From NCBI RefSeq assembly GCF_000369045.1, contig NZ_KB849786.1, positions 789,906 to 853,905 of the forward strand: DNA of 64,000 nt. The letters run 5' to 3'. The stretch comes from Acinetobacter pittii ATCC 19004 = CIP 70.29 (lineage in GTDB: Bacteria > Pseudomonadota > Gammaproteobacteria > Pseudomonadales > Moraxellaceae). Shown piece by piece: positions 16,108 to 21,104 of this stretch. The notes under the pieces were generated by a model. The model ran no database searches, had not been told where the DNA came from, and saw nothing but the letters and a program-made list of their open reading frames with translations. A program made the translations under genes and the position numbers. The first letter of the stretch is position 1, and every line of letters starts with the position of its first letter.

Positions 16108-17115
16108 CTATTTATTATCAGTTTCAATTTCTCGCACAGCATTATGTACTTGTACTGGCTCAATATGCAGTAATTTCTTACCAAAACTACGTAGCCACCA
16201 TACTAGTTGAGATGTAAAAGGTACGGTTGCTGAAACTTCTACAATATTTTCTTCAAGCGGAGTAATTGTTTGGTCTTTACTTAACTGACTTTCATAAAAG
16301 GTTTTCGCAGTTTGCTCTGTCATGGTTAAGGTGAGCTGAATTGATTCGGTTGGTTGGTTGTAGTCCACTCTAAAGCCTAAAGCCCCTGAGTCAATATAAT
16401 GATCAATATCAAAATTAACTGGATGCAGTGCTCGACTGTCTAATACTTTTGCTGATTTAAAACGGTGCAGAGCAAATGTTTGAACTTCAGTTTTGTCATG
16501 TCGTGTGCAAATTAAATAAATGACTGCACCTTTTTGTACCAAAGCCAAAGGATTTAAAACATAAGTTCTGTCTTCACCCTGATTGACCCGTGCCCGATAA
16601 ACACATTCTATTTGCTTGTCTTGGAGCAAACCTTCATAAATTGCTTGTTGAGCATTTCGGTCAACTACAGGTGGAATTAACGGTTGGCTTGCCGGAACAA
16701 TACGTACACGGTTAATCCACTGTCTCACATTATTTTGTGTAGAGAGACTACGTTTGGCCAAATCGAACCATGGTCCCATCTCATCAAGCAGGCTCGGAGG
16801 AAGGAGGTGCTTAAGGTGCTCCTCAACCATCATAAAGGTTACCGCTTGAGAGCTTGTCATGTGAGGTAAGCTTTGAATAGGAGCGTCTGATTGCCACCGC
16901 CAGCCTTGAGGTACGGCTTTATTGCTCTCTATCGGAAAACGTTGAGCAATTTGATTTAAATCACGCTGAATAGTCCTTAAACTAATATCAATACCTTCAC
17001 GCTCAAGCATTTCTTGCAATTCACGGGTCCCGATCCATTTGCCGGTCGGGAGGCGAGACAAGATTTGCCATTGGCGATATAAACTATTCGAAGTTTCTTT
17101 TTCTATTACAGACAT
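16108..17115 (-). CDS. WYL-domain transcriptional regulator (YafY type)
   Basis: 335-residue one-component regulator. The N-terminal winged helix-turn-helix covers about residues 15-75 (LSRLPTGKWIGTRELQEMLE; GIDISLRTIQRDLNQIAQRF). The WYL domain follows at about 165-235 (IECVYRARVNQGEDRTYVLN; PLALVQKGAVIYLICTRHD). The eponymous W-Y-L here reads V-I-Y-L, a variant. A C-terminal WCX domain (VPFTSQLVWWLRSFGKKLLH) completes the family architecture. WYL domains sense small ligands or nucleic acid. The gene diverges from the Anbu operon across a 225-base gap, so it is a candidate regulator of it, but WYL proteins are not sigma-54 activators. Confidence 0.88.
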   Translation of the reverse strand: MSVIEKETSNSLYRQWQILSRLPTGKWIGTRELQEMLEREGIDISLRTIQRDLNQIAQRFPIESNKAVPQGWRWQSDAPIQSLPHMTSSQAVTFMMVEEHLKHLLPPSLLDEMGPWFDLAKRSLSTQNNVRQWINRVRIVPASQPLIPPVVDRNAQQAIYEGLLQDKQIECVYRARVNQGEDRTYVLNPLALVQKGAVIYLICTRHDKTEVQTFALHRFKSAKVLDSRALHPVNFDIDHYIDSGALGFRVDYNQPTESIQLTLTMTEQTAKTFYESQLSKDQTITPLEENIVEVSATVPFTSQLVWWLRSFGKKLLHIEPVQVHNAVREIETDNK

Positions 17116-17281: not shown

Positions 17282-17298
17282 TGGCACTGAAATTGCTT
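17282..17298 (+). promoter_or_regulatory. Sigma-54 (-24/-12) promoter of the Anbu operon
   Basis: TGGCAC-TGAAA-TTGCTT: GG at 17283-17284 and GC at 17295-17296 are separated by exactly 10 bases, and the flanks match the sigma-54 consensus TGGCAC-N5-TTGCW. Predicted start of transcription is near 17308, giving a leader of about 33 bases before the ATG at 17341. Confidence 0.8.
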
Positions 17299-17340
17299 AT
17301 TTAAAAATGAAATATAGATAAATGATAAGACGAGGTGGTT

Positions 17341-18891
17341 ATGTCAGAACAAGAGCATGAATTACATCTAGATAATGATTTTTTTATACAAGAGCAGACA
17401 ACAACAGCACTTATTAACCCAACCTCTTTTTTAGAACATATTTCTGTGCAAACCAATCTCTTTGAGCAACTCAAATCACAGTTCTTTAATGAGATGCTTG
17501 ATGATGTAACGTCAAATGGTGCAGCTTCTAAAAAAATTGAACAATGGTTGAGCATCCGTACTTTAGATGAGTTAAAGGAGTTAAATACTCAAGCAAAACA
17601 GCATTTTCTTTATCATGGGATTACTTTTAATGTTTATGGTGATAAAGAAGGAACGGAGCGCACTATTCCTTTTGATTTAATTCCAAGAGTAATCGAGAAA
17701 AAGCAATGGGAAAAAATTGCCTCAGGCTGTGCGCAGCGTGTTAAAGCATTAAATTATTTCCTAGATGATATTTATCATGGACAACATATTTTAAAAGAAC
17801 AAATCATTCCCGAAGAACAAATTATGGGAAATGATGCTTTTCAGCCCCATATGCTTAAACATTCTTTAAAAGGAAAAATTTATTCACAAATTAGTGGGAT
17901 CGATATTATCCGTGATGGTGAAGGGGAGTTTTTTGTATTAGAAGATAATTTGAGAACACCTTCTGGCGTATCTTATATGATTGAAAGCCGAAATATTAGC
18001 CAGAAATTAATGCCTGAACTATGTACAGCCAATAATTTACAAGGGATTGAGCATTATCCAAAACTTTTAAAAGAAATATTGCAAGAAAATTCTTCTGCAG
18101 ATCAACCTTTTATTGTGGTGCTAACACCAGGGCGTTTTAACAGTGCTTATTATGAACATGCTTTTCTAGCGCGTGAAATGGATGTGCCATTGGTCACAAA
18201 TCGGGATTTATTTGTAGAAAATGATCAAGTATTTGTCAAAACTATTCGTGGGCGTCAAAAAGTAGACGTAATTTACCGCCGTTTAGATGATGACTTTCTA
18301 GATCCTTTAGCATTTCGACCAGACAGTGCTTTAGGTGTAGCAGGTCTTATGTCTGCTTATTTACAAAAAAATGTCGTGATTGCAAATGCACCTGGAACAG
18401 GCGTGGCTGATGATAAATCTATCTATCCTTATGTAGATCAAATGATTCAATACTATTTGGATGAAACACCAATTCTAAAAAATGTACCCACTTATCAGTG
18501 TCGTAAAGAAGAAGACTTAGATTACGTACTCTCTAACCTTGATCAATTAGTCGTTAAGGAAGCACAAGGTTCGGGCGGATACGGCATGTTGATTGGACCT
18601 AAAGCAAGCTCATGCGAAATTGATGACTTTAGAAAAAAATTGATTGCGATGCCACATATGTATATTGCGCAGCCTACCTTAGCTTTATCTGTCGCTCCAA
18701 CTTTAACGACAGGTGGGGTGGCTGAGCGTCATATTGATTTGCGTCCATTTGTATTGAGCTCACCTTATCGTACAGAGATTGTGCCTGGTGGCTTAACACG
18801 TGTGGCCATGCAGGCGGGTTCTTTAGTTGTAAATTCGTCTCAAGGTGGCGGTATAAAAGATACATGGGTTGTTGAAACATTACATTCCTGA
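17341..18891 (+). CDS. Circularly permuted type 2 ATP-grasp protein (Anbu operon)
   Basis: 516-residue protein of the circularly permuted ATP-grasp family (formerly DUF404/DUF407), predicted to form an amide or peptide-like bond using ATP. Family hallmarks are RTIPFDLIPRVI (about residues 102-113), SGIDIIRDGEGEFFVLEDNL, then RTPSGVSYMIESRN (about 183-216) and a late GSGGYGMLIGP nucleotide loop. The start is the ATG at 17341 behind GAGG; a GTG at 17335 overlaps that Shine-Dalgarno and is unlikely. It is the first gene of a four-gene unit with alpha-E, transglutaminase-like and Anbu genes, a conserved bacterial association. The substrate is unknown. It lies 33 bases after the predicted sigma-54 transcription start. 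Confidence 0.9.
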   Translation: MSEQEHELHLDNDFFIQEQTTTALINPTSFLEHISVQTNLFEQLKSQFFNEMLDDVTSNGAASKKIEQWLSIRTLDELKELNTQAKQHFLYHGITFNVYGDKEGTERTIPFDLIPRVIEKKQWEKIASGCAQRVKALNYFLDDIYHGQHILKEQIIPEEQIMGNDAFQPHMLKHSLKGKIYSQISGIDIIRDGEGEFFVLEDNLRTPSGVSYMIESRNISQKLMPELCTANNLQGIEHYPKLLKEILQENSSADQPFIVVLTPGRFNSAYYEHAFLAREMDVPLVTNRDLFVENDQVFVKTIRGRQKVDVIYRRLDDDFLDPLAFRPDSALGVAGLMSAYLQKNVVIANAPGTGVADDKSIYPYVDQMIQYYLDETPILKNVPTYQCRKEEDLDYVLSNLDQLVVKEAQGSGGYGMLIGPKASSCEIDDFRKKLIAMPHMYIAQPTLALSVAPTLTTGGVAERHIDLRPFVLSSPYRTEIVPGGLTRVAMQAGSLVVNSSQGGGIKDTWVVETLHS

Positions 18892-21043: not shown

Positions 21044-21060
21044 ATTTTGAATGTTTAAAT

Positions 21061-21091
21061 AAAAAAAATCCAAGCATGCTTGGATTTTTTT
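21061..21091. terminator. Bidirectional terminator, Anbu operon and alr
   Basis: AATCCAAG-CATG-CTTGGATT (21066-21085) between A and T tracts, between two convergent genes ending at 21043 and 21105. Confidence 0.9.
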
Positions 21092-21104
21092 TATATTTTA
21101 TTAT

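Follow-up and report, generated by a model that had tools for sequence, protein, structure and literature searches.

The four genes of the Anbu operon, which encode an ATP-grasp protein, an alpha-E protein, a transglutaminase-like protein and Anbu, have been described in this order (PMC6376114), and three Anbu proteins are reported to be inactive on standard proteasome substrates (PMC6376114). In Pseudomonas putida, PP_2685 and PP_2688 are up-regulated on nitrate as compared with ammonium, and the fragment upstream of PP_2688 gives a 3.7-fold induction on nitrogen depletion; the fragments upstream of PP_2685 and glnK are nitrogen-agnostic (PMC8050072). PP2685-2687 are also up-regulated under nitrogen limitation (PMC3325844), and the operon has been assigned to NtrB/NtrC (PMC7801951). 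Similarly, Anbu is stated to be highly expressed under nitrogen starvation (PMC6376114, citing Hervas et al.), and to be constitutive in moderate amounts and up-regulated in nitrogen-limited P. putida (PMC5666114, citing Hervas et al.). It should be added that in an RNA-seq analysis of an rpoN mutant under nitrogen limitation, PP_2686-2688 rise 14- to 20-fold, as compared with 11- to 15-fold in the wild type, and that the urt genes behave like PP_2686-2688 in this mutant; PP_2685, which encodes Anbu, rises just 1.1-fold in the wild type (PMC7801951). The rise of PP_2686-2688 in the rpoN mutant is evidence against a strict dependence on sigma-54.

Our literature search yielded no study of a promoter conserved among Anbu operons and none that names both Anbu and NtrC; the word Anbu does not occur where the P. 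putida papers describe the operon. A nitrogen-responsive promoter is already published for the P. putida operon (PMC8050072), and the Acinetobacter element described here adds a new member.

The Anbu operon and its upstream element

We analysed a 64-kb stretch of Acinetobacter DNA (the window), which holds the ATP-grasp, alpha-E, transglutaminase and Anbu genes in the order of the Anbu operon (Table 1). The nearest of three compared records is A. lactucae (95.0% identity over 11.3 kb); A. nosocomialis and A. seifertii show 87.6% and 87.4% identity, respectively. Residues T2, D18 and K33 of Anbu are invariant in an alignment of 16 sequences. Terminator-like hairpins, one of which follows the Anbu gene, are no more frequent in the region than expected by chance (2 versus 2.5 in shuffled sequences).

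Table 1. Features of the Anbu operon region (window coordinates)
Feature	Position	Strand	Basis
WYL-domain regulator, divergent from the operon across a common intergenic region	16108..17115	-	Pfam WYL + WCX
Sigma-54 (-24/-12) promoter element, very probable	17282..17298	+	sequence; kept in 142/143 Acinetobacter regions
Circularly permuted ATP-grasp protein, 516 aa, first operon gene	17341..18891	+	Pfam CP_ATPgrasp_2, E 8.3e-152
Alpha-E protein, short form, 198 aa	18914..19510	+	Pfam Alpha-E, E 2.2e-9, profile positions 5-163 of 294
Transglutaminase-like protein, 259 aa	19513..20292	+	Pfam Transglut_core + Bact_transglu_N
Anbu, proteasome beta-subunit homologue, 244 aa	20309..21043	+	Pfam Proteasome, E 2.4e-7
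Possible intrinsic terminator of the operon	21059..21094	+	16-pair stem (3 G-C), then T-rich tail; consensus match only

For comparison with other genomes we used the best 80 Anbu loci listed (the named loci). The WYL gene was found in all 18 Acinetobacter loci among these best 80; for the 62 others, the stretches examined gave no match at E 1e-8. The alpha-E protein has about 200 aa in Acinetobacter, whereas many other named loci encode one of about 310 aa. On visual inspection, the minus strand at 17183-17155 (TTGCTA-17 bases-TATTGT) resembles a sigma-70 promoter of the divergent WYL gene, with similar letters in many aligned species and a score under the scan threshold. In Acinetobacter sp. 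A47 (locus L220, 5793-6060), Anbu lies about 200 bases from the WYL gene and is apparently solo; no ATP-grasp gene was placed upstream of it, and no -24/-12 element was found between Anbu and the WYL gene.

The -24/-12 element, TGGCACTGAAATTGCTT, lies on the plus strand at 17282-17298. Its GG (17283-17284) and GC (17295-17296) are separated by exactly 10 bases within a TGGCAC-N5-TTGC context, and the ATG at 17341, with which a GTG at 17335 is in frame, begins 43 bases beyond the end of the element. The original prediction of a correctly oriented sigma-54 motif, with this spacing and at this distance from the ATG, is thereby confirmed in the sequence. From the spacing of the element, transcription would be predicted to start at about 17308.

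We searched the window and the whole genome for further copies of the element. TGGCACTGAAATTGCTT has a single exact match in the 64-kb window, namely the element itself. Neither the sites with at most 2 mismatches (6 versus 8.3 expected) nor those of a 16-base form in a relaxed scan (41 versus 42.2 expected) are in excess in the window; therefore relaxed matching alone, or the window alone, proves no function. At the scale of the whole genome, the core TGGCAC-N5-TTGCW has 13 matches versus 1 for the reversed-pattern control, and TGGCAT-N5-TTGCW has 19 matches versus 6.

Conservation of the element in Acinetobacter and in other genera

Of 175 Acinetobacter genomes, 145 gave a match to the first operon gene. 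With two fragmentary matches left out (G049 and G156), 143 upstream regions were available (30 loci and 113 more), of which 142 hold the element, the exception being G001. The -24 half reads TGGCAC in 35, TGGCAT in 106 and CGGCAT in 1 of the 142 regions, followed by N5 and TTGCT or TTGCA. The distance between the end of the element and the ATG is 36-46 bases in 130 of the 142 regions, when the ATG is picked by a simple pattern as the one after the first ribosome-binding-like stretch. In one genome, the -12 element and the operon's ribosome-binding site are set apart by an inserted stretch of about 265 bases (L061; also L218).

The eight core bases of the element are 100% identical among these regions, which is no evidence in itself, as the anchor pattern requires them. 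Because this invariance is built into the anchor, the real evidence of conservation is that 142 of the 143 regions hold the pattern at all. Moreover, in 92 non-redundant Acinetobacter regions the mean pairwise identity of the columns is only 30% upstream and 38% downstream of the element, so that shared descent alone does not account for its preservation. Of all blocks in the Acinetobacter upstream region, this one shows the strongest conservation.

A scan of other Anbu operons for -24/-12 sites had been proposed together with the original prediction. Operon starts in other genera were anchored on the match to the ATP-grasp protein, and a site was defined as GG-N10-GC with at least 9 of 11 consensus bases, within 420 bases upstream of that match. 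In 69 of the best 80 loci listed, an ATP-grasp gene could be assigned upstream; the other 11 were left out, as they have no such gene upstream on the same strand, and two more (L251 and L275) were dropped, as the match began far inside the protein. Classes were read from the record titles, and L280 ("Proteobacteria bacterium") was counted as gamma/beta. Among the best 80 loci listed, the site is present in 17/17 Acinetobacter, 37/39 other gamma/beta, 0/10 alpha and 0/1 other operons, and the reverse-strand control gives 1, 1, 1 and 0, respectively. In 26 of the 37 gamma/beta loci with a site (among the best 80 listed), a possible start codon follows 31-51 bases past the site; in 4 of the 37, the site is at least 139 bases from the possible starts.

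A second sample covered 60 operons across the phylum, of which 25 were left out, having no ATP-grasp gene within 4.6 kb upstream. The site was found in 15 of 25 operons of the same class (1.9 expected; reverse strand 0) and in 5 of 10 operons of other classes (0.5 expected; reverse strand 1). The operons that lack it are thus 10/25 of the same class and 5/10 of other classes in the phylum sample, 10/10 of the alphaproteobacterial ones among the best 80 listed, and Acinetobacter G001. The notion that alphaproteobacteria are without the site, suggested by the 0/10 among the best 80 listed, is weakened by the 5/10 operons of other classes in the phylum sample. A sigma-54-type promoter at Anbu operons is common and not universal.

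Genes sharing the promoter type

Of the 13 TGGCAC sites in this genome, 8 lie outside same-strand ORFs and precede an ORF start within 350 bases; the other 5 are inside ORFs. The eight targets are the Anbu operon, AmtB, a NarK-type transporter (an assignment slightly below the family cut-off), an ANTAR response regulator, an amidase of the FmdA/AmdA (formamidase/acetamidase) family, an NMT1-type binding protein, a TonB receptor and a TorF porin, the last two of which are not obviously nitrogen genes. The amtB site, TGGCACAAAGCTTGCTG, is 55 bases ahead of the start and overlaps a 102-aa ORF on the opposite strand. A sigma-54-like site is seen just upstream of amtB in all 30 Acinetobacter loci inspected (L295-L324), and in the two sequences examined for it, the site follows the apparent end of a glnK gene.

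Similarly, 12 of the 19 TGGCAT sites lie outside ORFs of at least 80 aa and have an ORF start within 350 bases. Their targets are XdhA, hydroxyisourate hydrolase, AgcS, an NCS1-type permease, a xanthine/uracil-type permease and GltB, whose start is 259 bases past its site; further targets are a ribonucleotide reductase, a nucleosidase, an AraC-type regulator and a metallo-hydrolase. Eleven of the 12 proteins were compared (L200 was left out), and L209 gave no family match. A TGGCAT-N5-TTGCA site (L205, L005) is seen before a persulfide-dioxygenase-like gene that is divergent from an activator ATPase gene, and we take these two genes to look like a FisR-type pair.

That the element is a sigma-54 promoter of the Anbu operon, as originally predicted, is supported by its conservation and by the presence of the same motif before nitrogen genes. 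We are highly confident that 17282-17298 is a real promoter, very probably of the sigma-54 type.

Probable nitrogen control and the likely activator of the promoter

Sigma-54 promoters need an AAA+ activator. The genome encodes RpoN, NtrC (750.6 bits, cut-off 620) and NtrB (325.4 bits, cut-off 240; both NCBIfam), with ntrB adjoining ntrC. Nine matches to Sigma54_activat exceed the cut-off, five of them strong: NtrC, a MobR-type phenol regulator and RtcR (both by NCBIfam), a 423-aa protein whose gene adjoins the persulfide-dioxygenase-like gene, and a protein that is presumably PilR-like, with no family over its cut-off.

For the box scans we used TGCACCA-N3-TGGTGCA, which we take to be the NtrC box consensus. 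NtrC-like boxes of at least 11/14 are present upstream of 23 of the 37 gamma/beta sites among the best 80 loci listed (0.56 expected from shuffles), and, in the phylum sample, upstream of 9 of the 15 same-class sites and none of the 5 others. No NtrC box was found upstream of the window element, where the best score against a profile built from Acinetobacter gltB and other Anbu boxes is worse than that of almost all shuffles (p 0.995). The same profile reaches a p of 0.05 or better in 12 of the 92 non-redundant Acinetobacter regions, and boxes of at least 11/14 occur in 7 of the 92 (0.3 expected), 6 of them at -71 to -83. In Acinetobacter gltB, a canonical NtrC box of at least 10/14 is found in 29 of 30 regions (0.86 expected; the 30 best-matching loci of 59 genomes). 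Because these gltB boxes are canonical, the weakness of the Anbu box in Acinetobacter does not come from a differing NtrC specificity. In Acinetobacter amtB, boxes of at least 10 occur in 2 of 30 regions versus 2.2 expected (again the 30 best-matching loci of 59 genomes).

Since the same motif precedes nitrogen genes, rpoN, ntrB and ntrC are present, and NtrC-like boxes occur at the operon outside Acinetobacter, nitrogen control of the Anbu operon is well supported. The four genes would be read from 17282-17298 by RNA polymerase with sigma-54 (RpoN), the most likely activator being phosphorylated NtrC, active when nitrogen runs short, and the operon would rise together with the genes for scavenging ammonium, nitrate, amides and purines. 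The best reading, and a likely one, is that nitrogen shortage controls the operon through NtrC; as the window has no recognisable NtrC box, we infer the activator step in this species, where the site used by NtrC may be degenerate, or NtrC may act with no recognisable site at all. The original suggestion of nitrogen shortage as the signal thus gains from the conservation of the element, the motif before nitrogen genes, the NtrC-like boxes elsewhere and the induction in P. putida (PMC8050072). That of an NtrC-type activator agrees with the presence of ntrB and ntrC and with the boxes in other genera; no recognisable box was found in the window. The further suggestion of an operon kept silent until it receives a signal is doubtful and not established, given that Anbu is described as constitutive at a moderate level (PMC5666114) and PP_2686-2688 as still induced in the rpoN mutant (PMC7801951).

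The promoter could be of the sigma-54 type and yet answer to an enhancer-binding protein other than NtrC, and to another signal. The four further strong activators of the genome (MobR-like, PilR-like, RtcR and the 423-aa protein) and the lack of an NtrC box in the window would fit this; however, in other gamma/beta genera this operon does have NtrC-like boxes, and nitrogen genes of this genome have the same promoter type. Moreover, a missing box is not unusual here, because just 3 out of 20 sigma-54-like promoters in this genome have an NtrC box of at least 11/14 (0.11 expected), so that other nitrogen promoters of the genome also go without a clear one. We regard another activator as unlikely. 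Less likely still, the operon might be read mainly from a sigma-70 promoter, perhaps regulated by the WYL protein, to which the -24/-12 element only adds. This would agree with the constitutive, moderate level reported for Anbu (PMC5666114), the induction in the P. putida rpoN mutant (PMC7801951) and the WYL gene of all 18 Acinetobacter loci among the best 80 listed. Yet no sigma-70-like site reaches the scan threshold on the plus strand between 17116 and 17340, where the -24/-12 element is the best conserved block, and the WYL gene was not found in the stretches examined for the 62 other loci among the best 80 listed; the ATP-grasp gene was placed in 52 of these loci and the sigma-54 site found in 37. 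A chance resemblance to a sigma-54 promoter, with which the lack of excess among relaxed matches in the window would agree, is contradicted by conservation (142/143 Acinetobacter regions and 37/39 gamma/beta operons among the best 80 listed) and has a negligible probability.

Implications and comparison with known systems

The sigma-54 promoter in many genera, in many of them with NtrC-like boxes, makes nitrogen limitation the condition under which substrates of Anbu should be sought. This promoter type groups the Anbu operon with genes for the use of amides, purines and nitrate as nitrogen sources, and the grouping with nitrogen-scavenging genes favours, by inference, a role of Anbu in nitrogen recycling or storage rather than in general protein quality control.

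Like the window, P. putida KT2440 has homologues of the ATP-grasp, transglutaminase and Anbu genes in one cluster, PP_2688-PP_2685 (PMC8050072); in one study, induction of the KT2440 operon persists in an rpoN mutant (PMC7801951). Six of the ten named Pseudomonas loci with a site (among the best 80 listed, P. putida not being among them) have their best box, of 10-12/14, at -66 or -68, in contrast to the window, which has none. It is also evident that Acinetobacter gltB differs from the Anbu promoter of the window in having canonical NtrC boxes. As a tentative and rather less probable proposal, the Anbu system could belong to a nitrogen-stress response common to beta- and gammaproteobacteria, its own enhancer having been rewired in Acinetobacter: the -24/-12 element would have stayed under strong constraint and the NtrC box would have eroded, with NtrC acting without a canonical site or another activator having taken over. 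In Burkholderia cenocepacia H111, the cluster I35_5080-83, described only as transglutaminase-like proteins, is listed among the common targets of sigma-54 and NtrC (PMC5491218). The promoters of the amtB/gltB type, which depend on NtrC and sigma-54, carry the same kind of -24/-12 element as the Anbu promoter.
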